Positions 5,927 through 41,314 of a stretch of DNA of 41,314 bases are shown in pieces. The stretch is from a virus. The position numbers were made by a program, and so were the translations under genes. Each line of letters opens with the position of its first letter. Position 1 is the stretch's first letter. Below the pieces are notes generated by a model. That model did not search any database. It worked only from the letters and a program-made list of their open reading frames with translations, and was not told the origin of the DNA. Location of the stretch: positions 1 to 41,314 of IMG/VR virus record IMGVR_UViG_3300048586_000207; one strand, 5' to 3'.

Positions 5927-8900
5927 CTAGTACCCCCGTGCCCGCGCCAGCGCGGCGCGGCGTATGGCCTCCTGGGCCGTCCCGTCCCGTTGCACTGAAA
6001 GCGTCACCGGGCCGTTGAACACCACACCGGCATCGCCCCGTTGGGCGACGTTGGCCAGCACGGTGCGCGAGGCTGGGTTGCTCGTCACCTGGGCCCCGGT
6101 CGGCAGCCGCACCAGCTCCGGCCCGGCCTCGCCCACCAGCGCCAGCGTCCCGCCGCCGGCGAAGGCCGGCACCCCGTCGAGCACCCGCTGCCCGTTGGCC
6201 GGGATCGTGCCGCCGGTGGCGAAGGGGTTGTTGAGCGCCAGCCCGCCGGTCTGCACAGTGTTGACGTAGGTGGTAACCGTTCGGCCGTCGAGATTGGCCA
6301 GAATGTCGCTGATCTCGCCCGCGGTCAGGCTGACGTTGTCGACCGCGTTGAAGTAGGTGGTGACGTTCTTCGGGACCCCCTCGATCGCCCCGGTCAGGAG
6401 TTCCACCGCCACCTGCGTGGTGGCCGCGTCAGTGTCGGTATCGACGTTGAAGATCTCACCCAGGAGGTCGGCCAGCGCCTCGATCGTGGTGTTGAGTTCC
6501 TGGATCGCGGTGGTCGCGCTCACGGCGTCGTCGAAGTTGACTTCGTAAACGCCCGGCTTGACCTCGGAGATCAAACCCATTTGCACGAGCATGGCGGCCA
6601 GCACCGGATCGGCGTTCGCCATTTCGTTGACCATTTTCGTGGTCGCTTCGCGCTGCCCCTCGGTCGCCGAGGCCGCGGCCAGCTGCGCCACTTCGAGCGC
6701 CTTGGCGCTCTGCGCCTGGTCCATGAAGCCGAGCGCCGCGAGCTGCGCATCTGGGCCGAGGTCCTGCAGACCGTCGATGTATTCGGCTTGCTGCCGGGTG
6801 GCGTCAGCAATCACCGGCGCCAGGCCCGCCTGGACCGCGAGCAGATCCTGCTGCGCGTTCTCCACGTCCCGGCTGATGCGGATTTGCGCGTCCTGGGCGG
6901 CGTTGTACTGTTCGAGCGAGATGCGGCCATCGGCGAGCAGCTGGTCGAGCTGGCTCCAGGTCCCCGGATCCCCGATCAGCTTGTCGGCCCACGATTCGAC
7001 CGAGCCGAGCTGCTGGGACATCGCATTCGTTTGCCCGACGATCGTGCCGAAGACCGAGTCGAGCGCGTCCTGCCCGCCTTGCAGGTTGACCGCGACATCG
7101 AGCGACGGCGCCTTGATCCCCGCCGCCTGGAAGAGCCGCGCGTTGGTGCTCACAAGACCGAATTGCTCGGCGACGCCGGCCAGGGCGTCCTCGTACTGGC
7201 CGAAGACATCAACCTGCGACCGCGCGGCGCTTTCGACGTTCGCCAGCGCGGGCGGTACGTCCTGGGTCCGGTTGACGAGTTCCGTGGTCGCGCTCGCCGT
7301 CTCATAGAGCGCGTCGGCATAGGGCCGCAGGGCGCTGCGGGTATCGGTGATCTCGTCCTCGAAGTTCAGTTGCTGCACGCGGTCAAACGCATCGGACCCG
7401 CGCAGGATGCCGTCGAGATCAGCCCAGGCCGCCGCGAATCCGGTCAGGGTTTCATTGAGCGCCAACTGATCGGTCACCCAGCCGGCCAGCGCCGCGCGAC
7501 CGGCGGTCAGGGCGGCACTGAGGGCGATGACGGCGTCCGTGCCGGTTTCCACCGAGGTGTTGCCGTAGGACACCGCCTCGGCCCACTGGTGCATCGCCTC
7601 TTCGGAATCGCGTACCACATTGCCGTTGGAGAGTTTCGCGTTGTTATTGGCGATGACCGCCTCGGTGTTTTCTTCGACGGCAACGGTCTGTTCTTCGATC
7701 GATGTATTGCCGTAGGAAACCGCTTCGGCCCACTGGTGAAGAGCCTCTTCCGAGTCCCGAACGACGTTCCCATTCGCCAGCATCGCGCCCGTACCGGCTT
7801 GAAGCGCGGCGTTATGGGCCTCCGTAGCCGCAGCTGCTTGGAGCGCTTGCGTGTCGTAATTGCCGAGATCGGCTACTACCCCGTCAAGGGCATTTCGGAA
7901 GCCATCGAGCGTGAGTTCCCCGGCCTCGTACATATCAACGAGGTTGCTAACCGTCTGCAGCGCTGCGGCCTGCCCCGGCCCGGCGTACTGCATGACCGCT
8001 AGCATCGCCTTCTGCGCGCCCTCAGCATCGTCAATGGCTTCGCCAACGTCCCCCCATGTCTGTCCGTACTCCGCAACCCTTGCCTCTGCGGCCGCGACCT
8101 GCGCTTCCCATTCCGCAAAGCGAGGATCGGTGCCGGGAATGCCGGAGGGCGGAGCATTCCGCAGGCGGTCCAATTCATCGAGCGCGGCCTTGTATTCACC
8201 GAGCGTGGCGAGTTGTTCCTCAAGTTGCGCGTTGCCCTCGCGGAGATTGAGCCCCAGCGTGGCGTTGTTCATCGTCATGGTGAGTTGAGCAATGGTGAGA
8301 TCGAGCGTGCTGACATTCGCCTCAGCACGCCCGAGGGCGTTCGCGAGGTCGTCCTCCATGATGCCGGAGAGCTCAACCGCCGCGACGCCGGCGCCAACCA
8401 GTGCGCCGGCGATTCCCGCGCGTCCGAGCACGCCCATGAGGCCGGTACCGGATCGGATGGCCGCGCCGAATCCACCCGCAGCCGACGTCGCTTCCCGCAT
8501 ACCCTTTGCAAGGGCGACGGTGCCAGAGAGCGCTAGCCCAGCTTCCAGTCCGAACGACGAGATCACGCCGGCCGCCTGACCGACCGGACCGGTCATTTCG
8601 ACGAACCCGGTGATCGTGTCCTGGAGGCGGTTGGCGAATTGCTGCGTCTTGCCGGCGGCATTCTCCGTGGCGTCACTCGCCGCGCCGAGGGCGAACGTGC
8701 TCTGCTCCATGAGCGCGTTGAACCGGAACTGGCCCGCCTCCGCGTTGCTCATGGAAAGGGTGAGGCCTTCGGCGTCAATCGCGGTCTGGTTCATGGTGAG
8801 GCCAAGTGCCTCAATCGACTCTCCTTCGCCGCGGATTGACGCGGCCACCCGCTGGGCCGCATCGGTAAGCGTCGTGCCGTTGACGGCGGCAAGATCGGCG

Positions 8901-9529
8901 CTCGTCATGATGAGCTGCTGAATCTGCTCGTTGGTGAGTTCGTAATTTCGCTTGAGGGTGCCGAGAATGTTGGCCGCCTGCACCGCCTCGTCATTGCTGA
9001 AAATGGTGGTGTTCTGGATGGTGTCAGCGAGCGCGACGAACTGGCCGGCGGCATCGCCGTAAGTGCGTCCTAGGGCCGCGACATTGCGCTCGTAGTCGAC
9101 GAGCTGACTGGCATACATCGAGAACGATGTACCCAACAAGGCCAGGCCTGCACCGACTTGCTTGCCCGCGTCTTCGAAGTCCTTGAGTGACCGGCTAGCT
9201 GTCTCGACATCGCGGCCCATTTCGCTGGCCGACTGCCCGACCTGATCCTGGGCCCGGTCCAACTCGTCGAGCGCGCGCCCGGCGCGATCGGCACCCGCTG
9301 GCAGCTCACGGCCAATTTCATCGGCCGCGCGTCCGACGTCGAGCACCATATCGACGGCGCTCTGTCCGACCTCCTCTTGCGCGCGTTCCATGTCATCGAG
9401 CGCGTCAGCTGCCTGCTCGGCCCCGCGATCGATCTCCTCGCCCATTTCACGCCCGGCTCGCCCCGTCCGCTGGAAGACGGCGCTCGCGTTGTCTTTCGCT
9501 TCGAGTCGGATCAGCAGATCTTTGGCCAT
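5927..9529 (-). CDS. tail tape measure protein
   Basis: With 1200 residues this is the longest gene of the genome. It has a helical coiled-coil N-terminus, hydrophobic glycine/alanine-rich stretches around residues 310-390, and long helical repeats, all typical of tape measure proteins that set tail length and enter the cell envelope on infection. An internal duplication is visible near residues 585-660: GNVVRDSEEA, then HQWAEAVSYGNTS, occurs twice (about 7697-7781 and 7551-7629). The ATG at 9529 follows AAGGA. By tail length rules, about 1200 residues would predict a tail near 180 nm. It follows the chaperone genes as expected, but a plus-strand gene lies in between. Confidence 0.92.
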   Translation of the reverse strand: MAKDLLIRLEAKDNASAVFQRTGRAGREMGEEIDRGAEQAADALDDMERAQEEVGQSAVDMVLDVGRAADEIGRELPAGADRAGRALDELDRAQDQVGQSASEMGRDVETASRSLKDFEDAGKQVGAGLALLGTSFSMYASQLVDYERNVAALGRTYGDAAGQFVALADTIQNTTIFSNDEAVQAANILGTLKRNYELTNEQIQQLIMTSADLAAVNGTTLTDAAQRVAASIRGEGESIEALGLTMNQTAIDAEGLTLSMSNAEAGQFRFNALMEQSTFALGAASDATENAAGKTQQFANRLQDTITGFVEMTGPVGQAAGVISSFGLEAGLALSGTVALAKGMREATSAAGGFGAAIRSGTGLMGVLGRAGIAGALVGAGVAAVELSGIMEDDLANALGRAEANVSTLDLTIAQLTMTMNNATLGLNLREGNAQLEEQLATLGEYKAALDELDRLRNAPPSGIPGTDPRFAEWEAQVAAAEARVAEYGQTWGDVGEAIDDAEGAQKAMLAVMQYAGPGQAAALQTVSNLVDMYEAGELTLDGFRNALDGVVADLGNYDTQALQAAAATEAHNAALQAGTGAMLANGNVVRDSEEALHQWAEAVSYGNTSIEEQTVAVEENTEAVIANNNAKLSNGNVVRDSEEAMHQWAEAVSYGNTSVETGTDAVIALSAALTAGRAALAGWVTDQLALNETLTGFAAAWADLDGILRGSDAFDRVQQLNFEDEITDTRSALRPYADALYETASATTELVNRTQDVPPALANVESAARSQVDVFGQYEDALAGVAEQFGLVSTNARLFQAAGIKAPSLDVAVNLQGGQDALDSVFGTIVGQTNAMSQQLGSVESWADKLIGDPGTWSQLDQLLADGRISLEQYNAAQDAQIRISRDVENAQQDLLAVQAGLAPVIADATRQQAEYIDGLQDLGPDAQLAALGFMDQAQSAKALEVAQLAAASATEGQREATTKMVNEMANADPVLAAMLVQMGLISEVKPGVYEVNFDDAVSATTAIQELNTTIEALADLLGEIFNVDTDTDAATTQVAVELLTGAIEGVPKNVTTYFNAVDNVSLTAGEISDILANLDGRTVTTYVNTVQTGGLALNNPFATGGTIPANGQRVLDGVPAFAGGGTLALVGEAGPELVRLPTGAQVTSNPASRTVLANVAQRGDAGVVFNGPVTLSVQRDGTAQEAIRRAALARARGY

Positions 9530-10695: not shown

Positions 10696-10893
10696 TCAGT
10701 TTACCACCCGCCGCAGCTCCATGGCGTAGCCACTGAAGACGCGCGGGAGATCACACGACGGGCAGATCGCCGTGCCGCAGATGCCGTGCCAGATGATGGT
10801 GACGCCGGGCGCAGGGCGGAAGGCCTTACTCCCGCCATGCACCCAGCCCAGCGTCGTCTGGCAGGCCTTGCACTGCCACTCGGACCGGCTCAT
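10696..10893 (-). CDS. small zinc-ribbon protein after the tail tube gene
   Basis: This 65-residue protein has two cysteine pairs, CKAC at residues 8-11 and CPSC near residues 44-47, with the sequence GVTIIWHGICGTAI between them. This is a small zinc-ribbon layout. Its ATG overlaps the tail tube stop (TGATG). It lies 23 bases before the leader hairpin of the chaperone gene, matching the arrangement at 22.6 kb. The function is unknown. An RNA-binding role like that of Mu Com is a hypothesis. Confidence 0.7.
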   Translation of the reverse strand: MSRSEWQCKACQTTLGWVHGGSKAFRPAPGVTIIWHGICGTAICPSCDLPRVFSGYAMELRRVVN

Positions 10894-11834: not shown

Positions 11835-11942
11835 GCGCGTGCCCCGCGTGACTTCGATCCCGGCCTGGGCGCGGAGCAGGATGACTTCGTTCGTTCCGAT
11901 GGCTTTACCCTACCTTTCTTAGCCCCACAGGGGAAAATGCGG

Positions 11943-11965
11943 TATAATTGGGGCACAAAAGTGCC
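11943..11965 (+). promoter_or_regulatory. promoter (-10 TATAAT) and start-site hairpin for the HNH gene
   Basis: A perfect TATAAT lies at 11943-11948 on the plus strand. It is followed by a small hairpin, GGCAC-aaaa-GTGCC, at 11952-11965, near the expected transcription start. A weak TTAGCC at 11919-11924 could act as -35 with an 18-base spacer. The unit reads into the plus-strand HNH gene. Confidence 0.5.
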
Positions 11966-12015
11966 ACGCGATGCTGTGAACATCCGTGGCGCGGCCAATC
12001 TGCAAGGAGATTGAC

Positions 12016-12507
12016 GTGCCCACTATACCCCACGACCAGTACGTCCGATGGTTCTTTGCCCAGATCGATCGCACGCCATCGCCGGCCGGTTGCTGGCTCT
12101 GGAAACGCGCGCTCCATCATTCGGGCTACGGCGTTGCGTACTTGAATCGCCGGCAGTGGCAAGCGCATCGGTTGGCCTATCACCTGTTCATTGGCCCAAT
12201 CCCCGATGGCCTGTGGGTGCTGCACCAGTGCGACAATCGGCAATGTTGCAACCCTGATCACCTTTTTCTCGGCACGCAGGCCGACAACATGTCCGATTGC
12301 GCTCGCAAGGGCCGCACGAACAAGCCGCACGGCGAGGGTCATTCCGCCGCAAAGCTGACGGAAGATCAGGCGCGTGAAATCCTTCGGCTGCGCCGGGAAA
12401 CGTCCCTGACGATGCGCGAGATTGGCGAGCGCTTTGGGGTGACCATCGGCGCCGTCAGTGGCATCGTGAATGGCCGCAATTGGCCGCATATCAAGGACGC
12501 TGCCTGA
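12016..12507 (+). CDS. HNH homing-type endonuclease with C-terminal HTH
   Basis: This is a 163-residue protein from GTG 12016, chosen because AAGGAG lies six bases upstream. The HNH_3 core is complete: GCWLWKR, GYGVAYL, AHRLAYHLF, VLHQCDNRQCCNP and HLFLGTQADN. The last 45 residues form a helix-turn-helix (LTEDQAREIL, then TMREIGERFGVTIGAVSGIV), which in such nucleases helps bind the target. It is the only gene on the plus strand in the neck-to-tail region and stands between the 83-residue protein and the tail tube, at the point where the tail tube start codon would be expected. This fits insertion by homing. Confidence 0.9.
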   Translation: MPTIPHDQYVRWFFAQIDRTPSPAGCWLWKRALHHSGYGVAYLNRRQWQAHRLAYHLFIGPIPDGLWVLHQCDNRQCCNPDHLFLGTQADNMSDCARKGRTNKPHGEGHSAAKLTEDQAREILRLRRETSLTMREIGERFGVTIGAVSGIVNGRNWPHIKDAA

Positions 12508-14783: not shown

Positions 14784-15734
14784 CTAGGTCGTCAGGTCGC
14801 TGAAGAAGTAGCCGAGTGCCGGGGCGACGACCTTGGAATCCCAGGCCATCTGCGATTCGACCCGCACCGCCCGCTTGAGCGGCATCTCGATCCGCGTGAC
14901 GCCGACGTTCATGCCCATGCCGTCACTGACGCCGGTCCACTCGAAGGTGTAGCCGGCGCTCGGCGTCAACAGGGATGGCGTCGGGGCCACGTAGGCCAGC
15001 AGGGCGCTGTCGCTGAAGATTTGGCTGTAGGCGGCCGTCTCGCCTTCGATGTTGGTGGCCTTGATGGCGCGGGCCACGAAGACCCGATCGACCCCGAACA
15101 GCCGCGCCATGATTTCCTGGGTGATCGCCTCGGAGCTGGTGTACTTGATCCGATCCACGAAGTCGGGATGGTTCAGCAGCGCCGCATAGACGTCGTAGCC
15201 AAGCACGAGCGTGTTCGGCTCGTAGCCCGTGGCATTGAGCATGGTGCCCTTGGCCGTCTGAATGTCGAGCAGGGGCGTCGAGGTAGCGTAGACGTCCCAG
15301 TCGGTGGCCGAGGTGTTGTCGGTGCTCCAGACGCCGGTCTTGAAGTAGGTCGAGGCCCACTCGATCTCGCGCTTGAGCAGCAGTTTGCGGGTCACGAACC
15401 GGGCCGCGTCCGCTTCCAGGTTCAGCGGCGCGTCGGCGTTGGCCAACACCTGATCGGGCAGGTCCTGGTGAAACGCGAACACGTCGGCCGAATAGGAATC
15501 GGTGCTGATGTCGAACCCGCCGCCGGCCGATTCCGTGGACGGCGGACGGATCTGCGCTTCATCCCGGAACCAGTCGTTCTGGTCGTAGGTGAAGTACTTG
15601 TCGGTCTGCTTGCTGACCGGGATGCTCGGAAAGACCCGGCCGGAGATGAAGTCGGCCTCGGACTGCACGTAGGCGACGCTGATATTCGTCAGCACCGCGT
15701 CAATGTGGACCTGCGAGGCGGATGGCTGAGGCAT
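14784..15734 (-). CDS. major capsid protein
   Basis: The 316-residue protein follows the decoration gene. It has the usual content of a phage coat of the HK97 fold in short form: NISVAYVQSEADFISGRVFP near the N-terminus, a KYFTYDQNDWFRDEAQIRPP segment, NTLVLGYDVYAALLNHPDFVDRI in the middle and a C-terminal strand region before ALGYFFSDLTT. No N-terminal scaffold (delta) domain is attached, which agrees with a separate scaffold on the protease gene. AGGAG lies nine bases ahead of its ATG. Confidence 0.85.
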   Translation of the reverse strand: MPQPSASQVHIDAVLTNISVAYVQSEADFISGRVFPSIPVSKQTDKYFTYDQNDWFRDEAQIRPPSTESAGGGFDISTDSYSADVFAFHQDLPDQVLANADAPLNLEADAARFVTRKLLLKREIEWASTYFKTGVWSTDNTSATDWDVYATSTPLLDIQTAKGTMLNATGYEPNTLVLGYDVYAALLNHPDFVDRIKYTSSEAITQEIMARLFGVDRVFVARAIKATNIEGETAAYSQIFSDSALLAYVAPTPSLLTPSAGYTFEWTGVSDGMGMNVGVTRIEMPLKRAVRVESQMAWDSKVVAPALGYFFSDLTT

Positions 15735-15775: not shown

Positions 15776-16171
15776 CTAGGCCGCCCGGCTAGGCGCTGCG
15801 CAATTGATGACCGCCGTGATGAGCCCGCCGACCGCCGTGTTATCTTCGAGCACCTGCCCGATGACGTAATTCGTCGTATCGGTGCCCGGCGTCTTCTTGG
15901 CCGCCTGCCCGTCGGCGCTCGTGCCGATCAGGTCGGTCGTCGCCAGGTTGGCATCGGCCACGATCTTGCTGATGCCGATGATGCAGACCTCCGCGGCCTG
16001 CCCCGAGGTTGGCGTGTTCTGCAGCACGCCGATCGGCACGTCGGTGACCGCCGCGCAGACGACGACCGTTTTGTTGGCCGCCAGCTTGACCAGGTGATAC
16101 TGCTTGCCGCTCAGGTCGGCGCCCGCCGTGTGCCCCACGAGCTTGACGACGCCATCAACTTCCCAGGCCAT
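15776..16171 (-). CDS. head decoration/stabilisation protein (DUF2190-like)
   Basis: The 131-residue beta-rich protein has the pattern of DUF2190-type capsid proteins: a GVVKLVGHTAGADLSGKQYHLVKL start, ADVPIGVLQN-like turn (here TDVPIGVLQN), GQAAEVCIIGISKIVAD, and a C-terminal GQVLEDNT segment. Such proteins trimerise on the capsid surface and stabilise it. The start shares its A with the upstream TAA (TAATG). It lies between the protease/scaffold and the major capsid gene as usual. Confidence 0.78.
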   Translation of the reverse strand: MAWEVDGVVKLVGHTAGADLSGKQYHLVKLAANKTVVVCAAVTDVPIGVLQNTPTSGQAAEVCIIGISKIVADANLATTDLIGTSADGQAAKKTPGTDTTNYVIGQVLEDNTAVGGLITAVINCAAPSRAA

Positions 16172-17895
16172 TAGTTGCGCTCCTTCGCGACGGCCGTCGC
16201 CAGCTCACGATCGGTGGTGAGAATGTGCGTGATGGCCTGCTGCTGGGTGACCTTGTTGGCCTCGGCGTACACCTTTGCCTGCTCTTCCACCCGCTGCCAC
16301 GCGCTCTTGCCCGCATCACCGTCCCCGCCGGCGCTGGTGCCCGCCGCCGAGAAGAGCCCCGACTGCGCGACCGATTTGGCGTGCTCGGTGTTCGTCTTGA
16401 TGTAGCGCTTGACCTGCTCGGAGTCCTCCCCGAAGGTGGCGGCGAGGTCGTTGAGCATGGCCACGTGCTCGCCGGCATCGCCGAACCAGCGCGGGCCCCC
16501 GTCAGTGCCCTTGACCAGCGCGGTAAAGCGCTGGCTGCGCTGCGCCGTCTCGAGCGAGGCGATGCGCCCCTCCTGGGCCGCGATGGTCGTCTTGGCTTCG
16601 GCCAGCTCGGTAACCGTCGCCTCGTACTTCGGCTTGAGCTCGCGATACTCGCGAATCTCCGCCTCGGTGAGCGTGACCGCCTGCCCTGCCGCTGGCGGCT
16701 GCTGGTTCTTGGCGTCAGACACGCCAGTACCCTCCTGCCGGTGCGCGTCGCGCCCGGCCTGATCATCCAACGTCCCGGTTTCGCTGGCCGCCAGCGGCCG
16801 GAGAACGTCCGTCTTGAAGTGCGGGCGGACACAGATCGCCATGCCGACCGCCACGTTGTCGTGAAAGTCGGCGGTGACGGGGTCCTGCCACTGGTCGTAG
16901 ATCTCGGCGGAGACGTAGCGGAAGCGGTCGCCGGCGATCAGCTCGCGGCCCCGGTCGTTCCACTCCGGCCGGACCTCGATCGATCCGTCCTCAGCGAGAC
17001 GCATCTCCCGAATCCAGCCGACCGCCCCGGCCGAGCGATAGTCGTGTTCGACGTTGATGGGCAGATCCTGCCCGTAGGTGTTGGCGGAGAAGTTGGCGAC
17101 GATCGCCGCGTACTTCTCGGCCGTGAAGTCGAGGGTCCCGAAGACCGCATGGGTGTAGGTGCCCGGCGGGGGGAGGAACTGCACCCACTCGCTGGCCGCC
17201 GTGAAGGTGCGTGGGCGAACGAACCGAATGCCGGCGTGATCGCTGATTGACTCGGCGTAAACCATGCCGTCTGTCATGCCGCGCAGCGGGATAACCACCC
17301 GCCGCTCGCCGGCCACGATCACGATGTCCGTGAAGCGCAAGGGCAGCTCGGCCAGGTCCGGCGTCAGGTCGGTGCCGGCCGGCACATAGGCGAGCGTGAT
17401 GTGCGGCGAGTAGCCATGCTCCCTGCTGATCGCCGCACCGGTGAACCCGATGCTGTCCACGATGGCGCCGCGCAGTTCCGTCAGCCCCGGCACATCGGGC
17501 ACGGCGTAGATGACATCACCGTCGTCACCGCCATAGAACCGCCCATGCCCGCCGATCGTGCCGGTGAGCGGTGCGTGGTAGGCCGCGATGTCATCCACCG
17601 CGCCAACGATGCGGGCAAAGGTCAGATCATCGGCCGTCGCCATGTCCGGCACGATCGCCAGCGTGATGTGCAGGTTCTCGGCTGGTTCGCCACCCGGCTG
17701 CGCGAGGGCGGCCGCGGTGGCGTCATCCAGCCACAACGCCACCAGCAGCCCGGTGTAAGCGCCTTCGGTCAGTTGCAGCGATGTGGGGAGCTGCTCGTTG
17801 GGGATGCGGACGCCCCGGCCCATCGCCTGCCGGAGCTGGGCGACGATCGCCGCGCGGTCGCTATCGCTGAGAATGAAGTCGTCGCTCGGTGTCAT
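16171..17895 (-). CDS. 2H-phosphoesterase fused to Mu I-like prohead protease and scaffold
   Basis: This 574-residue protein has three parts. Residues 45-205 form a 2H (2'-5' RNA ligase-like) domain with both signature motifs, H76-I-T78 (NLHITLAIVPD) and H165-I-T167 (PHITLAYVP). Residues 225-365 match the Mu I-type head protease: FLPPPGTYTHAVFG, ALIV-type core, INVEHDY with H284, GWIREM and FRYVSAEIYD. Residues 405-574 are coiled coil and Ala/Glu/Lys-rich, as in scaffolds. The ATG at 17895 was chosen because it lies after the leader terminator and behind a GGAG; the open frame beyond is leader. 2H enzymes cleave cyclic phosphates or 2'-5' bonds. Their fusion to a head protein is odd. Confidence 0.85.
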   Translation of the reverse strand: MTPSDDFILSDSDRAAIVAQLRQAMGRGVRIPNEQLPTSLQLTEGAYTGLLVALWLDDATAAALAQPGGEPAENLHITLAIVPDMATADDLTFARIVGAVDDIAAYHAPLTGTIGGHGRFYGGDDGDVIYAVPDVPGLTELRGAIVDSIGFTGAAISREHGYSPHITLAYVPAGTDLTPDLAELPLRFTDIVIVAGERRVVIPLRGMTDGMVYAESISDHAGIRFVRPRTFTAASEWVQFLPPPGTYTHAVFGTLDFTAEKYAAIVANFSANTYGQDLPINVEHDYRSAGAVGWIREMRLAEDGSIEVRPEWNDRGRELIAGDRFRYVSAEIYDQWQDPVTADFHDNVAVGMAICVRPHFKTDVLRPLAASETGTLDDQAGRDAHRQEGTGVSDAKNQQPPAAGQAVTLTEAEIREYRELKPKYEATVTELAEAKTTIAAQEGRIASLETAQRSQRFTALVKGTDGGPRWFGDAGEHVAMLNDLAATFGEDSEQVKRYIKTNTEHAKSVAQSGLFSAAGTSAGGDGDAGKSAWQRVEEQAKVYAEANKVTQQQAITHILTTDRELATAVAKERN

Positions 17896-17911
17896 CTCGG
17901 CTCCGGCCAAC

Positions 17912-17952
17912 AAAAACGGCCAGTGGCGCCCGGGCGGGGGCGTCACTGGCCG
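17912..17952 (-). terminator. intrinsic terminator in the protease/scaffold leader
   Basis: The arms 17917-17930 and 17939-17952 pair over 14 positions with one mismatch, around an eight-base loop, and on the minus strand TTTTTG follows. The strong hairpin plus U-tract lies only 17 bases before the ATG of the protease/scaffold gene and downstream of a putative promoter, so it acts as a leader attenuator or the 3' end of a short RNA. Confidence 0.75.
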
Positions 17953-17986
17953 ACAATTGGCCGTCGCTCGTGACGTCAGTGTAGCA
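17953..17986 (-). promoter_or_regulatory. extended -10 promoter and conserved 15-mer
   Basis: On the minus strand TGC-TACACT (17986-17978) forms an extended -10 element. Thirteen bases past TACACTGA lies the start of GGCCAATTGTCGGCC, which runs into the terminator stem. The same set (TGnTACACTGA, the 15-mer, a hairpin and GGCCGTTTTTG) recurs at 22520-22598. A TTGCGC at 18003-18008 could be a weak -35 with a long spacer. The expected transcript to the terminator is about 60 bases. Confidence 0.5.
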
Positions 17987-18013: not shown

Positions 18014-18724
18014 CTAGTTCGGCGTCACCTGGAAGAAGAACCGGGCGGCTTCCTGCGTCAGATCGGTTGGCTCCACGACACCAACGAGCGTGCTTGGCAT
18101 GGCGGTGTGCGCGCCGGTCGATGCGACGCTGATGCCAGCCGATGACACGGACGATCCGTCCGTGAACGCAGCACGGCCAACCGTCCCGCCGTAACTCCGG
18201 AATCCCGTGATGCTGACCGTCGCGGTGGCGGACCCTCCAACCCAGTACAGGCCCGGCGTCACCGGCGCATCCGGCGACAGACTGAACCCGTCTCCCGGTT
18301 GCGCCCCGTCCGTCACCACGACCGTGCCCAGATCAGCCACTTTCGCGCCCGCCAGTCCCCGGCTCGCTCCGGTTTCCGAGACGGCGAAGAGGGCGAACCG
18401 GGCCGTCGCGTCCCCGTCCTGGGGGGCGTACAGCACAAATCCGATGCCGGTGAGGTTCGCGTCGGGATCACCGATCCTGATGAGCGCGAGCGTGATGGTG
18501 TCCGGTTCCAACGTCGCCGGATCGTCGCCTTCGCTCCCCGCCATCGCGGTGCCGTTGTCGTACCAGACGTTCGGGTTCATGGAGTACGTGTCGCCGCCCC
18601 CGCCGCCGGCATCCACCGGGATCGCCATTCCTATGCCGCCCGCCGTCACCGAGTCGAGCGGGATTACCCATCCATCTTCGCCGCGCAGCACGTACCCGCC
18701 GCTGCCGTCCGGGTAAATTCTCAT
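18014..18724 (-). CDS. head-region fibre or decoration protein with shared N-terminal peptide
   Basis: The 236-residue protein begins MRIYPDGSGGYVLRGEDGW, then VIPLDSVT, which aligns with the first 27 residues of the phosphoesterase protein at 20800-22518. After a Gly-rich linker the rest is a beta-rich domain (NPNVWYDNGTAM, LYAPQDGDATARFALFAVSE, PVTPGLYWVGGS) of jelly-roll type, as in phage surface proteins that bind sugars. GGAGG lies ahead of the ATG. Its place between the Mu F-like and protease genes suggests a head-attached protein. The shared N-terminus may be a docking peptide. Both are inference. Confidence 0.65.
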   Translation of the reverse strand: MRIYPDGSGGYVLRGEDGWVIPLDSVTAGGIGMAIPVDAGGGGGDTYSMNPNVWYDNGTAMAGSEGDDPATLEPDTITLALIRIGDPDANLTGIGFVLYAPQDGDATARFALFAVSETGASRGLAGAKVADLGTVVVTDGAQPGDGFSLSPDAPVTPGLYWVGGSATATVSITGFRSYGGTVGRAAFTDGSSVSSAGISVASTGAHTAMPSTLVGVVEPTDLTQEAARFFFQVTPN

Positions 18725-19432: not shown

Positions 19433-20778
19433 CCCTCGCCGCCATCAGCCGGCTCACCGCCGCTGCTCTTCGTCGCCGCCCACGCCTCCCGCTGGGCCTT
19501 GATCTCCTCGGCCGTCGGCAGATCGTTGATCGGCAGCCCGGCCACCTCGTGCAGGAACTCCCGCAGCTCCGGCGAATCGATCAGGGTGCCGGTGTTGGCC
19601 AGGCGTACCAGGTAGAGCCCGAGATTCTGGAGGTCCTTGCTGTCGATGCGGCCCGGCTTGAGCTTCGGCGCCAGCTCGCTCTCCATGCCGTTGAGCCGCA
19701 GCAACCGGGGAATCGCCTGCGTGTTGATCGCATCGGCCACGATGTCGAGGTGCGCGCCGATCGCGGACTGGAAGAGCCCGCTCTGCGTTTCCGAGAGCGC
19801 CAGCGCCCCGATCCCGTCCTGCCCGGTCCGCATCACGTTCGCCAGGAAGACGGTCACGATCTCGTTGGCGTAGCGCCGGACGACCGGGTCTGTGTCGAAC
19901 GCCTTGCCGCCGCCCGACTTGATCAGCTCGAACTCATACTGCTTGTTGCCGTCGGAGTCGCTGTCGCTCGGCAGGATAATGCCGGCCTGCTCGCCGTTGC
20001 GCAGGCTCGTCACCATCTGCTGGTAGGCGGCGTAGAGCGGATCGCCATCCTGCATCGCCGATGCCGGCATCCGGATCATCGGGATGCCGGCCAGATCCCG
20101 CTCGATACCGATCCCCTCGATCTTCTGGATCGCCCGCTTGTAGTACCACGCGTCGTACGCCGGCCGCAGCGGCGTCCACCCTTCCGGCGAGTTGGTCTTG
20201 CCGGAGTAGACGATGTGCAAGAGCCGCTCGATCGGAATCTCGTACTTCTGGAAGCTGGCCGGATCCTGCTGGATCAGCGCGGTCACGTCGCCGGCGTCAT
20301 CGAATGTCCAGCCAAACCGCGTCGCCTGTGGCCGGGTCGCCCAGCGCCGCCAGCCGATGCGGCCGTCATCGAACTGGCTCCGCTGCGTGGGATCGGCCTG
20401 CTCGGGTCCGCTCCGCCGCTTGTAGATGATCTCGCCGGCGTACCAGCCCCACGGGATGTAGGAGAGGATCGCCGAGAGGGTGTCGCCTGGCCAGTAGCCG
20501 TCCATGTCGGCCAAGCATTCCTCGATGAAGGTGGCCAGCTCGGTCGCCGGCGCCGATTCATCGGCCGGCTCGATGGACCAGTCTACCCGCCGCACCAGCA
20601 TCTCGATGCCGTGCAGGATCGCCCCGATTTCCGGCGAGTGGATCATCGCCCGGATGGTGCGGTCCCGTTCGGTGCCGCGCCAGGCCCTGTCAGGATCGTC
20701 GGACCACAGGACACCGCCATAGTGGACGAGGCCCGGGGAGCCGTGGGTGACGAAGGGCGCGCGTGCGCGGTCGGTCAT
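19429..20778 (-). CDS. portal protein (Mu gp29 / DUF935-like)
   Basis: The 449-residue protein has typical portal segments: EIGAILHGIEMLVRRVDW, IPWGWYAGEIIYKRR, FDDAGDVTALIQQDP, PIERLLHIVYSGKTNSPEG, LRPAYDAWYYKRAIQ and GIERDLAGIPMIRMP, and a C-terminal helix region before a Gly/Glu tail. These match the Mu gp29-like portal family. It forms the ring through which DNA enters and leaves the head. GGAGAGG lies ahead of the ATG. TerL is upstream, but a zinc-ribbon and the phosphoesterase gene stand between the two, which is unusual. Confidence 0.9.
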   Translation of the reverse strand: MTDRARAPFVTHGSPGLVHYGGVLWSDDPDRAWRGTERDRTIRAMIHSPEIGAILHGIEMLVRRVDWSIEPADESAPATELATFIEECLADMDGYWPGDTLSAILSYIPWGWYAGEIIYKRRSGPEQADPTQRSQFDDGRIGWRRWATRPQATRFGWTFDDAGDVTALIQQDPASFQKYEIPIERLLHIVYSGKTNSPEGWTPLRPAYDAWYYKRAIQKIEGIGIERDLAGIPMIRMPASAMQDGDPLYAAYQQMVTSLRNGEQAGIILPSDSDSDGNKQYEFELIKSGGGKAFDTDPVVRRYANEIVTVFLANVMRTGQDGIGALALSETQSGLFQSAIGAHLDIVADAINTQAIPRLLRLNGMESELAPKLKPGRIDSKDLQNLGLYLVRLANTGTLIDSPELREFLHEVAGLPINDLPTAEEIKAQREAWAATKSSGGEPADGGEG

Positions 20779-20799: not shown

Positions 20800-22518
20800 C
20801 TAGCCGAGCACCGTGTTCATCGTCCAGTCATCCGATGATGTATTGACAAAGCGCATGTGCTCCTGACTAGTCAGGGGCCGCCGGAACGCGGCCACGCCCA
20901 GCAGCGCTCCCCCGATGCCACTGGTGCTCGATGACCCGCCGAAGTACATGGCCGTGCTGATTGCCACCAGGTCGTAGTAGCCGACCGATCCGGCGTCCTT
21001 GCCATTGACCCGCAATTGCGCCACCTTGCCGTCCCAATCGAGCGCCAGCGTCACGATCTGCCCCACCGGTACCGGGTACGACGTGCTGATCACACTCAGA
21101 TTGCTGCCGACGCTGGCCGAGGCATTTTCGGATGCGTTGACGGTCAGGAAGATGCGGCTCAGCCCGCCGAGTGCGGGTTGGTATGCGACATTCTTGGTGG
21201 CGGCGGTATCCGCGATCGTGCACCGGACAATGACGCTGCCCTTGCCCGGCAGGAGGTAGCTGCTCGGGTTGATCAAGGTCCGGTTGTTCTGGTCCGTCAG
21301 GTCCAGCCCGCTCTCTCCGTTGACCGTGGTATAGAGAGCCGAGCCAACCATTGTCAGGGACGCCGCGCCGTTGATTGTCTCCCCGGCCAACGAATCGACC
21401 AGCGGAAACACGAACGCGGTCGGGTTGCCTTCCGGCGGCGCCGGGGTGCTGCGGGGCACCGGGATCGCCGCGTAGCCGTTTAGGGTCTCCCACGCCTGCG
21501 TGCGGTGATTCCGGATGTGCACGTCAATCCGGTCGTCAAGCACCGTCAGGAAGAGCGAGCGCAGGGGATCGGTCTCGCCGGTCAGCGCCTCATCCGTCCA
21601 GGCCAGTGACCCGGCGTTGATGTGGGCGATGTGCCGGGAGCCGAGCCAGTGTCGGTCAAAGCAGCCGACCGCCTCGTACTGCGAGTGGGTGTGGCCGCAG
21701 ATCCACGCCCGCGCGTTGCTGTGCTTGTCGAGGACCGCCTGCACATCCGTACTGGGCTGGGTCATGAAATTGGGATTGATGCTCGAAAGCCCACCGGTGG
21801 CCGCGCCGCCCGGCCGCATGGTGTAAACCGTGCGTTCGAGCGGCGAGTGGCAGAGGATGATCGCGTCACGCCCATCGGCGGCCAGCTGCTGATCGAGCCA
21901 GGTCACGGTCGCCGTCGAGAGGGTGACCGGATTGGCCCCACCACCCGCCACCGTATCCAGCCCGATCACGATCAGGCGGCACCAGCCGAAATCGGTGACG
22001 AAGTTCTGGTCCGCGTAGCCGTAGACCGCCGCCCACTGGTCGGCGGTGCGTTCGCCGTTGGTGTCGTGATTGCCGACGCAGGCGGTCCAGTCGGCCCGGT
22101 CCGGATCGAGCGCGGCGGCGCGGGCCAGGAACTCGGTGTCGTTCGCGCCGGGTGTCGTGCCAGACGAATCGACCCGATCAACCAGGTCACCGACGTAGAG
22201 ACGGTGGAAATGCAGGTGGTTGAGCGTCGCGAGATCGGTGAACGCCGCGTCGAGCCGCGCGTCAATGCCGGTGCGGGTGGTGTACCCGACGTGCACGTCT
22301 CCGATCACACTGAAGGTCCGATCGGGAAAAGCGGGCGCGGTGCCAACGATCGTTTCAACGACCGCCCTCGCCGCGCTTCCCGGCGTCTCAAGGTCCGCCT
22401 GCGTCACGCCGACATCGGCCGTGCCGAGCGCCCCGTCCGTCACCGACTCCAACGGGATGACGAAGCCTCGCTCGCTGCGCAGGAACAGGTCACCGTTCGG
22501 CGCGCGGTAGATCTTCAT
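20800..22518 (-). CDS. metallophosphoesterase with C-terminal LamG-like domain
   Basis: The 572-residue protein has all motifs of a calcineurin-like phosphoesterase: GDVH (73-76), GDLVD (110-114), GNHD (149-152), CHSP with H224, and GHTH (275-278). Residues 365-560 form a concanavalin/LamG-like sugar-binding fold (LPGKGSVIVRCTI, ALDWDGKVAQLRVNG, FRRPLTSQEHMRFVN). The first 27 residues match the N-terminus of the protein at 18014-18724. The ATG at 22518 was chosen since it begins that shared peptide; its AGGAGG is inside a terminator stem. Its place before the portal gene suggests a virion surface enzyme acting on a phosphate-containing polymer or nucleotide. The substrate is unknown. Confidence 0.85.
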   Translation of the reverse strand: MKIYRAPNGDLFLRSERGFVIPLESVTDGALGTADVGVTQADLETPGSAARAVVETIVGTAPAFPDRTFSVIGDVHVGYTTRTGIDARLDAAFTDLATLNHLHFHRLYVGDLVDRVDSSGTTPGANDTEFLARAAALDPDRADWTACVGNHDTNGERTADQWAAVYGYADQNFVTDFGWCRLIVIGLDTVAGGGANPVTLSTATVTWLDQQLAADGRDAIILCHSPLERTVYTMRPGGAATGGLSSINPNFMTQPSTDVQAVLDKHSNARAWICGHTHSQYEAVGCFDRHWLGSRHIAHINAGSLAWTDEALTGETDPLRSLFLTVLDDRIDVHIRNHRTQAWETLNGYAAIPVPRSTPAPPEGNPTAFVFPLVDSLAGETINGAASLTMVGSALYTTVNGESGLDLTDQNNRTLINPSSYLLPGKGSVIVRCTIADTAATKNVAYQPALGGLSRIFLTVNASENASASVGSNLSVISTSYPVPVGQIVTLALDWDGKVAQLRVNGKDAGSVGYYDLVAISTAMYFGGSSSTSGIGGALLGVAAFRRPLTSQEHMRFVNTSSDDWTMNTVLG

Positions 22519-22519
22519 C

Positions 22520-22562
22520 AAAAACGGCCTCCTGCTTCGCCCGTGGGCGCCGCATGAGGCCG
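22520..22562 (-). terminator. terminator that contains the ribosome binding site of the phosphoesterase gene
   Basis: On the minus strand CGGCCTC (22562-22556) pairs with GAGGCCG (22531-22525), with an inner CGCCC/GGGCG stem in the loop, and TTTTTG follows directly before the ATG at 22518. The Shine-Dalgarno AGGAGG (22533-22528) is part of the closing arm. The element could stop transcription and also hide the ribosome site in read-through mRNA. Confidence 0.7.
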
Positions 22563-22598
22563 ACAATTGGCCATGATTGCTTTGGGTTCAGTGTATCA
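22561..22598 (-). promoter_or_regulatory. extended -10 promoter and conserved 15-mer
   Basis: On the minus strand TGA-TACACT (22598-22590) forms an extended -10 whose TGA is also the stop codon of the zinc-ribbon gene. Fifteen bases past TACACTGA, GGCCAATTGTCGGCC begins and merges with the terminator stem. The layout copies that at 17912-17986. The expected short transcript is about 65 bases. Confidence 0.5.
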
Positions 22599-22790
22599 GG
22601 TCCGATCCCGCCTGATCTGCTCCAGACGCTCCGGTGGCAGGGACGGCGCCGGCTCATCGAGCCGCACGATCACCCACGCCTGGCAGGCCTTGCAGTAGAT
22701 GCGTAACCGGCCGAGCGGGTGATCGATCTCTCCGAGGAAACGCCGGCACGACGGGCAGAGGATCGGCCGCAGCTCTGTCGCCGCGCTCAT
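22596..22790 (-). CDS. Com-like zinc-ribbon protein
   Basis: This 64-residue protein has CPSCRRFLGEI near its N-terminus and LRIYCKACQAWVIV later, the layout of Mu Com and related small zinc fingers (C-x2-C ... C-x2-C with an aromatic after the second pair). The ATG at 22790 overlaps the TerL stop (TGATG), so this start was chosen over the upstream GTG. In Mu, Com opens a hairpin that hides the mom ribosome site. Here the next gene has its Shine-Dalgarno inside a hairpin, which makes a similar role worth testing. Confidence 0.75.
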   Translation of the reverse strand: MSAATELRPILCPSCRRFLGEIDHPLGRLRIYCKACQAWVIVRLDEPAPSLPPERLEQIRRDRT

Positions 22791-24331
22791 CAACGCCACA
22801 CCGACGGCGAGGTCAGGACGGCGGGGGCGACCTTCACCGGCGTCCCGTGCCGCAGGTCGTGCCAGCTCCAGAAGGCCGCATCGACCAGGTCGAACGGCTT
22901 GATCAAGAGGTAGCGCCTGAGCGCCCGCTGAAGCGTCTCGTGCGTGCCGATCACATGGACGAGGCGCCCCTTCTCGTAGTCGGCCAGCATCTGCGAGGCC
23001 CGGTGCGCTTTCGGGCCGTGTCCCGCGCCGGCCTTGTCCTGCCGGAATTGCGGCGCCCGCTCCTTGCGGCCCAGCTCGCCCGAGGCACGCAGCTGCTCAA
23101 CCACGCCGGCATAGGTGCTCTTCCAGGTATCGCCGCCCTGATCGGTCTCCACGCCGACGCATTCCGCCTTGAGTTCGAGCGCCTTGCGCAGCGCCCGGGT
23201 CAGCGCGTCATCCGGCGAGGTGCGCGCCTCCCACGAGAAGAGCCGGTAGATCGTGCCGTCCGCTGCCAGCCCGTCGGCCTGGATGCCGTGCGCGTCCGAG
23301 CGATCGGTATCCGTGACGGCCGGATCCACCCAGACAACGATCCGCTCCAGCGCCGGCACCGCGCTCCATTCGCAGTGCCGGAACGTGAGGTGCCCGAAGA
23401 TGCCGCCGTCGACGTTGCCGACCTCGTGCTGCTTTTCGCGCAGGAAGGCGGTCAGCCCGATCTCGTTCAGCTCGGCTTGGAGCTCCGGGATCCCCATCGC
23501 CGGCCAGGTCGGCTCGCCATGGGTGATGATCGCCTTGCCGCTCCGCTGCTCGGTCACCAGATTGCGAATCGCCGGATGCGGCCCCGAGACGATGCGATCG
23601 GCGAGGAAGTCGGCGCGGCCGTCGGCGAGCCGCGACACGATGCCGTGCTCGTGGATGAGGTTCTGCGCCACCAGCACGGCGGCGTGCGCGGCCCGCGACG
23701 GCAGCAGCGATTGCGTGATGGTGGCGATCTTCTTCTCGACGGTGCCCGGCGAATCGAGCAGGCCGTCGATGTCATCGAAGATGAGGATGTCCGGGCGGTC
23801 CTCATCGATCTTGGCCCCGCGCGCCGCGGTATCGAGGCCGATCGCATCGAGGGTAAACCCGCTCGCCGTGCGGAGCCGATTCCGGCGCCAGCCGGCGGCG
23901 TTGCCGTACTTGCCCAGCTTGCGTTGCGAGGCGGCCGGGTAGTGCTGCGTGAAGGTGCGCGATTCGAGGAGCCCGCCGACGTTCTTGACGTGATCGTCCG
24001 CCCGTTCCTGGGTGGCGCAGATGTAGAGCCCGTACCGGCGCGTCTGCCGCGCAGCGACCATGGCGCAGGCCACCTCGGTGCTGGTCGATTTGGCGAAGCC
24101 ACGCGGCCAGATCGCCACGAACGGCGCGGCCGGCGCACCCGACTCGATCGCCCACGCCCACTGCCAGAACTGCTCGTGGTAGGCCGCATACGGGGGCCAG
24201 AGGTAGCCGGCGAAGTTCTCGGCAATCCACTCCTGCCAGGTTCCGGGTTCGGTGCGCTGACGAAATGATCGGATCTTTTCGAGCATATAGCCGGTCGCTT
24301 TGACCGCTTCGGACTGCGAGACGACTTCCAT
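22790..24331 (-). CDS. terL: terminase large subunit
   Basis: The 513-residue protein has an ATPase with Walker A WPRGFAKST (75-83), Walker B DILIFDDID (181-189) and, after a linker, a nuclease with VVWVDPAVTDTDRSD (acidic D336) and a later GVETDQGGDTW. It cuts and pumps DNA into the prohead through the portal. The ATG overlaps the TerS stop as TGATG. The length is normal for the family. The presence of both active sites supports headful or site-specific packaging, which cannot be told apart from sequence alone. Confidence 0.93.
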   Translation of the reverse strand: MEVVSQSEAVKATGYMLEKIRSFRQRTEPGTWQEWIAENFAGYLWPPYAAYHEQFWQWAWAIESGAPAAPFVAIWPRGFAKSTSTEVACAMVAARQTRRYGLYICATQERADDHVKNVGGLLESRTFTQHYPAASQRKLGKYGNAAGWRRNRLRTASGFTLDAIGLDTAARGAKIDEDRPDILIFDDIDGLLDSPGTVEKKIATITQSLLPSRAAHAAVLVAQNLIHEHGIVSRLADGRADFLADRIVSGPHPAIRNLVTEQRSGKAIITHGEPTWPAMGIPELQAELNEIGLTAFLREKQHEVGNVDGGIFGHLTFRHCEWSAVPALERIVVWVDPAVTDTDRSDAHGIQADGLAADGTIYRLFSWEARTSPDDALTRALRKALELKAECVGVETDQGGDTWKSTYAGVVEQLRASGELGRKERAPQFRQDKAGAGHGPKAHRASQMLADYEKGRLVHVIGTHETLQRALRRYLLIKPFDLVDAAFWSWHDLRHGTPVKVAPAVLTSPSVWR

Positions 24332-41118: not shown

Positions 41119-41235
41119 TCAGCCTCCGTAGCCGAACCGGATGCAGGCGATGATGAGCAGGACGGCAAGCAGGGCGAGGCGGGTGGCGAAGCCGATGGTG
41201 TCGAGCGTGGTCTCGACCTGGGGGTGGTCGTTCAT
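41119..41235 (-). CDS. 38-residue membrane microprotein
   Basis: The protein MNDHPQVETTLDTIGFATRL, then ALLAVLLIIACIRFGYGG, has a short acidic N-terminus and one membrane helix. The ATG overlaps the stop of the 117-residue membrane protein (ATGA), best seen in the left repeat copy at 40-43. Its stop lies one base before the endolysin ATG. The genome break lies within it. Its place directly ahead of the endolysin suggests a holin-like or signal-arrest role. Confidence 0.65.
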   Translation of the reverse strand: MNDHPQVETTLDTIGFATRLALLAVLLIIACIRFGYGG

Positions 41236-41314
41236 GGCCCATCCTCCGCCTCGAGGGCCTGCACGGCCCGCCAGAGCCGGAACGAGGCGACGGTGCCGGC
41301 GAGGAAGAGCATGC
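41193..41314. repeat. terminal direct repeat, right copy
   Basis: This is the second copy of the 122-base terminal repeat. It completes the 38-residue membrane protein gene (41119-41235) and ends inside a second copy of the 3' part of the 117-residue membrane protein gene (41232-41314 equals 40-122). Confidence 0.9.

Follow-up and report, generated by a model that had tools for sequence, protein, structure and literature searches.

Promoter–tag–terminator units before late genes of a 41.3-kb virus genome: candidate attenuators sharing a genome-specific 15-mer

To our knowledge, late-gene control has been worked out for few phages. The element described here consists of a promoter, a shared 15-mer (the tag) and an intrinsic terminator, and stands before two genes of IMG/VR virus record IMGVR_UViG_3300048586_000207 (positions 1 to 41,314; this whole 41.3-kb stretch is called the window). 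Among the described systems nearest to it, phage Xp10 passes its late-gene terminators by means of the polymerase-modifying protein p7 (PMC6624301), and the put RNA of phage HK022 is made up of two stem-loops, after which the polymerase ignores downstream terminators (PMC9378689). The Com protein of phage Mu binds a short hairpin adjoining an inhibitory stem, and its motif as defined by systematic evolution of ligands by exponential enrichment is GAG-NN-CC (PMC6483171). Cluster K mycobacteriophages carry start-associated sequences and their extended forms (SAS/ESAS), with 11–19 copies of the 13-bp GGGATAGGAGCCC, each 3–7 bp ahead of a start codon, in that half of the genome which holds non-structural genes (PMC3203893).

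The window is a virus genome with a G+C content of 67% and late genes mostly on the minus strand, as are both units: copy 1 at 17986–17911 and copy 2 at 22598–22519. Each reads, in order, TGnTACACTGA, 13–15 nucleotides of unrelated sequence, the 15-mer GGCCAATTGTCGGCC, identical in both, then a stem-loop (about -28 kcal/mol) followed by TTTTTG, and finally a gene. The initial annotation, made from the sequence, had described this order at both sites, and it stands; only the lower ends had to be moved, each by one base (to 17911 and 22519). The complete unit occurs twice in the window and in none of 100 dinucleotide shuffles. Its features, and the genes that follow, are:

17976–17986 (copy 1) and 22588–22598 (copy 2), minus strand: TGnTACACTGA
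17978–17986, minus strand: copy 1 extended -10 promoter, TGCTACACT; predicted transcription start A at 17971
17948–17962, minus strand: copy 1 shared 15-mer, GGCCAATTGTCGGCC; possible 4-bp hairpin, its 3' half being the terminator stem base
17912–17952, minus strand: copy 1 intrinsic terminator; stem 17917–17952, T-run 17912–17916, hairpin of -28.5 kcal/mol directly before TTTTT
16171–17895, minus strand: gene behind copy 1, RNA-ligase-like/head maturation protease protein (PHROG 14859 and 328)
22590–22598, minus strand: copy 2 extended -10 promoter, TGATACACT; predicted transcription start A at 22583
22558–22572, minus strand: copy 2 shared 15-mer, GGCCAATTGTCGGCC
22520–22562, minus strand: copy 2 intrinsic terminator; stem 22525–22562, T-run 22520–22524, hairpin of -27.1 kcal/mol
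20800–22518, minus strand: gene behind copy 2, metallophosphoesterase/lectin-like protein of 572 amino acids (Pfam Metallophos 7e-10, Laminin_G_3 7e-7)

Neither promoter-like sequence has a -35 consensus. The terminators finish about 60–64 nucleotides after the predicted starts, in GGCCGTTTTTG at 17911 and 22519, and the start codons follow at 17895 and 22518. Since this leaves 16 bases between T-run and ATG in copy 1 and a single base in copy 2 (TTTTTGATG), there is no space for another promoter, and the genes behind both units should be expressible only by read-through of the terminator. In copy 2 the Shine-Dalgarno sequence AGGAGG (22528–22533) lies inside the 3' arm of the stem. The gene behind copy 1 heads the protease-scaffold-major capsid operon (scaffold 15776–16171, major capsid protein 14784–15734), so that the structural gene announced by the annotation is borne out there; for copy 2, whose gene sits between those for terminase and portal, the label is not firm.

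We put the probability at about 0.55 that the units act as conditional terminators (attenuators) in late promoters, opened by a phage-specific factor that would recognise the 15-mer. Three ideas of shared control had been offered initially, namely releasable attenuators, put-like antitermination and short phage RNAs, and the first is the best supported, by the conserved terminators, the lack of room for other promoters, the constant places of the units and the concerted change of the tag.

Exact occurrences of TGnTACACTGA, GGCCAATTGTCGGCC and GGCCGTTTTTG in the window are restricted to the two units. Bare GGYC-N6/7-GGCC is common (11 on the minus strand), and just two of these are then followed by a terminator. 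A standard promoter scan of the window picked up neither unit, and a standard terminator scan, which admitted only short loops and stems without interruption, left both hairpins undetected; a folding-based scan recovers them. The exact 15-mer was found in 43 IMG/VR stretches, none with the promoter and terminator context, so its letters alone are no marker of the unit. Architecture scans (GGCC-N7-GGCC and GGCC-N6-GGCC, plus GGCC-N-TTTTTG) returned 67 stretches with one clear unit, in a contig that proved to be a portal relative as well (L164, G033 below); the others were chance-like or had no promoter. The GGCC-type unit therefore seems confined to the lineage of the window. Rfam covariance models gave no window match at gathering score, copy 1 matching only far below such scores; this result, and the intrinsic terminator that each unit has of its own, speak against the HK022 put-like antitermination proposed at first. 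Searches of the open-access literature found no description of such units, which does not prove its absence.

Relatives were gathered by searches with the portal, terminase, capsid and protease proteins. All are metagenome contigs, and the near-identical L046, L047 and L068 were counted once:

G001/G002 (L046/L047): portal 92% identical to that of the window
G003 (L048/L070): portal 64% identical
G004 (L049): portal 63% identical
G033 (L164): portal 60% identical
G006 (L071): terminase 63% identical

Every member of this family carries the unit, with -10 box, short leader, tag, terminator and gene. In the window, G001/G002, G003, G004 and G033 a unit stands ahead of the protease gene; the window, G001/G002 and G003 have one behind the gene for a small Com-like protein, and G003 has a further one ahead of the portal gene. 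G006 carries one of its copies roughly 1 kb upstream of the gene for terminase. At the L047 site orthologous to the copy 1 promoter the sequence is TGCTAAACT. An A is found 7 nucleotides after the -10 hexamer in nine of the 11 family units, the two others, both of G002, having G and T. Between the window and L047 the terminator before the protease gene is retained with differing stem sequences and compensating changes. The search for the 15-mer and terminator in related phages, suggested with the initial annotation, thus recovers the layout at mostly homologous places, each phage having replaced the tag by its own. Unit-like sites lacking a tag were seen at G002 16141 and G003 7657. Bacterial genomes searched by portal and protease yielded no prophage relatives, and no such unit was seen in the regions read of cultured phages of Arthrobacter and Microbacterium whose capsid proteins are related.

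These placements bear on the possibility that the units make sibling small RNAs of about 60–64 nucleotides which act in trans, as antisense RNAs or protein sponges with the 15-mer as seed, the genes being expressed by leakage. A promoter and a strong terminator do bound short RNAs whose core is identical and whose stems differ, and RNAs of this length, as first proposed, are the expected product of termination. A trans function for them finds no such backing: outside the units, the window has no occurrence of the nine-base complement of the tag centre (GACAATTGG). The units, moreover, stand directly before late genes with the terminator touching the start codon or Shine-Dalgarno sequence. Copy 1 also stays with the protease gene although the upstream gene differs: in the window it is preceded by an extra gene (18014–18724) that is absent from L047, and in both genomes the unit immediately precedes the protease gene. 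A terminator that merely insulated would have no need of such a position. We regard trans-acting small RNAs as very unlikely.

Tags of the family compare as follows:

Window: GGCCAATTGTCGGCC, 2 copies
G002: GGCCATGCAYGGGCC, 2 copies
G003: GGYCTYTGTTGGCC, 3 copies
G004: GGCCTCTGTCGGCC, 1 copy
G033: GGCCATGTGACGGCC, 1 copy
G006: GRCGYGCGTTTkGmCGYC, 2 copies

Between the orthologous copies of the window and G002, six of the seven loop positions differ and one is kept, in flanking DNA that is 85–89% identical. The tags of one genome nevertheless match among its own copies, in the window as in G002, G003 and G006. Copying of whole units fails to explain the match, because leaders and stems are largely unrelated between the copies of one genome. 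DNA homology between the window and G002 is interrupted from about 22742, a position within the Com-like gene, to near 20769, which falls in the portal gene; copy 2 thus belongs to an exchanged block, and copy 1 does not. That copy 1 lies outside this block and yet bears the tag of its own genome is the strongest argument that a trans-acting reader of the tag may exist.

A simpler account would dispense with such a factor: constitutive promoters with leaky terminators would set protein ratios, and matching tags would reflect recent copying. It agrees with the presence of just two tagged copies in the window and with the abundance of GGCC repeats noted above. It has difficulty with a 15-mer that is identical in two copies whose leaders and stems are unrelated, with a tag that differs at the orthologous L047 site despite orthologous flanks, and with the recurrence of within-genome matching in G002, G003 and G006; we consider it distinctly unlikely.

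The gene that spans the edge of the exchanged block offers a candidate for the factor:

22596–22799, minus strand: Com-like zinc-ribbon gene, candidate factor (PHROG 6417 'translational regulator', 1.1e-5)

It is directly upstream of copy 2, the TGA of whose promoter is its stop codon. The match of its product to PHROG 6417 is weak (1.1e-5), and Pfam PF10122 is not matched. Zinc-ribbon genes are also found immediately upstream of a unit in L047, L048 and L183. The Com-like protein is 39% identical between the window and G002, as against 95% for terminase, 92% for portal and 86% for the MuF-like protein, and its gene is the sole one identified as common to the exchanged block of the window, G002 and G003. 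Because it is shared by the block and has diverged so far beside conserved neighbours, it is the best candidate for the factor; from position and divergence we would name it only tentatively, the identification being doubtful. A second small zinc-ribbon protein of 65 amino acids is encoded in the tail region (10696–10893, minus strand), with a 53% identical counterpart in the genome of L047.

In the mechanism favoured here, RNA polymerase would initiate from the extended -10 promoters, at about 17971 and 22583, and would by default make some 60–64 nucleotides, halting at the intrinsic terminator that immediately precedes the start codon. The 15-mer would begin 9–11 nucleotides from the 5' end of the RNA, its second half forming the base of the terminator stem. 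A factor holding the 15-mer, probably as a GGCC:GGCC mini-hairpin, would deprive the stem of its lower 4–5 pairs beside the T-run; once the stem was opened, transcription would continue, late in infection, and the start site would be freed from the terminator stem (copy 2) or from a further helix, P1 (copy 1). One factor would serve all copies of a genome, and the target sequence would therefore change in concert.

The tag can form a hairpin of 4–5 bp whose 3' arm is the terminator stem base. In most units the nascent RNA is predicted to fold into this mini-hairpin (GGCC:GGCC in copy 1), and a hairpin overlapping the terminator 5' arm, the geometry of an antiterminator, is seen in 11 of 11 family units, with a pairing that is not specific by permutation. 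The two copies of G006 differ by one A-U to G-C double change within the mini-hairpin, GGUC:GGCC in G003 fits it, and in the capsid-protein relatives described below the permutation p is 0.01–0.02. Pairing inside the 15-mer is only weakly supported.

P1 joins the leader to the ribosome-binding site beyond the T-run and is a feature of most capsid-operon units:

17901–17963, minus strand: copy 1 predicted P1 helix, leader CGGCCAA (17957–17963) with TTGGCCG (17904–17910)

It adjoins the Shine-Dalgarno sequence GGAG (17901–17904) in copy 1 and has 11–12 canonical or wobble pairs in G003 and G004. The true pairing was the best of 120 re-pairings of five capsid-operon units, or of 720 for six. As modelled, most capsid-operon copies can hide the ribosome-binding site too.

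Three other structural explanations were set aside. A kissing loop between copies (CAAUUG, AUGCAU) is out since the loops of G003, G004 and G033 are not palindromic; a leader peptide is out since copy 1 has no in-frame ATG, GTG or TTG before the tag comparable to copy 2; and a direct repeat (slipped terminator arm) in place of the hairpin is out since G006 copy 2 retains the inverted and not the direct repeat.

Several points weigh against the attenuator model. Besides the window only G002, G003 and G006 have at least two tagged copies. The mini-hairpin has only 4–5 bp, and forcing it costs 2–18 kcal/mol relative to the full structure. Re-pairing permutation shows no specific mini-hairpin in the GGCC group (p about 0.9), in part because GGCC is self-complementary, and on account of this result the mini-hairpin step is one that we infer. 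In copy 2 P1 is missing or weak, as it is in L047, and its test was devised after the folds had been seen and is to be discounted accordingly. The link to the Com-like protein, finally, is one of position and divergence.

The chief competing explanation is of the lambda Q or Xp10 p7 kind, in which a phage protein would modify the polymerase at the promoters and so make it disregard the terminators, and the 15-mer would be a DNA or pausing signal instead of a bound RNA hairpin. Terminators ending about 60–64 nucleotides past the predicted starts suit it, and so does the failure of permutation to reveal a specific mini-hairpin pairing in the family. It leaves unexplained both the coincidence of the tag with the terminator stem base and the P1 helices; the binding site of a Q-like protein would lie upstream, and there the units have nothing in common apart from the -10 box, and no Q, N or p7-like protein was found among the window proteins scanned, which did not include all open reading frames (ORFs). 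We judge it unlikely.

If the attenuator model holds, such a compact cassette, by keeping capsid genes from being transcribed and, in some copies, translated before a phage-specific factor is present, would work as a simple timer of late genes, and the concerted change of the tag across copies would provide a natural test of which protein reads it. A fuller version, in which the attenuator would lock transcription and, in some copies, translation of late genes and be opened by the Com-like protein, with specificity and targets co-evolving and exchanged as a set in a previously undescribed class of element, is improbable as a whole.

More distant phages with a major capsid protein of the same kind show the layout again, though with a different hairpin. 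In nine contigs whose major capsid proteins are 56–60% identical to that of the window, a -10 box is followed by an ACC-YGYG-GGT hairpin that overlaps a terminator, and then by a gene, the element being located 0.8–1.15 kb upstream of the scaffold gene:

L079, L082, L085, L096, L099, L111, L115, L116 and L122: leader core AGACCYGYGGGT (variants in some), overlapping the terminator

Six of the nine encode a small conserved zinc ribbon (CWRC...CxRCKAxN) 4–7 kb downstream. Another conserved leader, CGCTCCTCCGCCCGAGGC...GTAGGCGGC, stands before the same protease gene (protease 44%) at L183 7870–8000 and L184 2660–2780; its CGCTCC is complementary to the Shine-Dalgarno region GGAGCG beyond the terminator, and its CCGCC can pair with GGCGG at the terminator base. 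Because both leaders recur there, the capsid-operon layout may predate any one tag, and it may be a widespread form of capsid-operon control; the distant layouts may, as an alternative to common ancestry, have arisen independently.

A third, related site of the window has no 15-mer:

856–966 (surroundings 780–1060), minus strand: promoter TATACT 961–966, longer leader, terminator stem 861–903

It shows long leader-downstream complementarity (about -31 to -34 kcal/mol) and is conserved in G002 at 22.9 kb (L064 6830–6960); an HNH endonuclease gene (956–1591) overlaps its upstream side in the window. A promoter and terminator at about 11960–12040 were set aside as a further unit, since they belong to an inserted HNH endonuclease gene absent in L047. 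This plus-strand gene (11986–12507, within the stretch 11940–12507) has a sigma-region-4-like domain, and next to it lies a palindrome that bears a hairpin as well as -10-like boxes pointing either way (GGTATAATTGGGGCAC / GGTATAGTGGGCAC). Two 94-nucleotide repeats, 77% identical and 147 nucleotides apart, lie at 7547–7787 within the probable tape-measure gene (5927–9529). Positions 1–122 and 41193–41314 are identical 122-bp direct repeats, and the record probably represents a complete, terminally redundant genome or else a circle produced in assembly.

Compared with the described systems, the units share with lambda Q and Xp10 p7 intrinsic terminators behind a promoter that must be passed for late genes to be expressed; they differ in that several late promoters are attenuated separately and share a transcribed tag peculiar to the genome. 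HK022 putL and putR are likewise two related RNA elements per genome, of about 65–70 nucleotides and near promoters, whereas the second hairpin of the window units is a terminator with TTTTT, which removes them from that class. Like SAS/ESAS, they are short repeats before gene starts, some of which have inverted repeats, that are conserved at particular genes and vary between phages; membership is not supported, since sequence, place and gene set differ, the copies here being few, before late genes and upstream of terminators. In the ribonucleic antiterminators (RAT) of BglG, SacY and LicT a small promoter-proximal hairpin also overlaps the terminator 5' arm, the two being mutually exclusive, and one factor can serve several operons. 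The RAT hairpin is longer than the 15 nucleotides and 4-bp stem found here, the window units stand before late genes of a phage, in some copies the ribosome-binding site can be hidden as well, and no BglG-family protein was found among the window proteins scanned against PHROGs and Pfam, a scan that did not take in every ORF; such a protein might also come from the host. In Mu com-mom a small zinc-ribbon gene is again directly upstream of the leader and a short hairpin abuts a larger stem with start signals; in the window units the large stem is instead an intrinsic terminator with a promoter of its own ahead of it, at least two genes use the element, and the Com motif GAG-NN-CC is absent from GGCCAATTGTCGGCC. 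By analogy, the units appear to resemble RAT/BglG in transcription and Mu Com in arrangement, while the full set of features that defines either system is not established in them.
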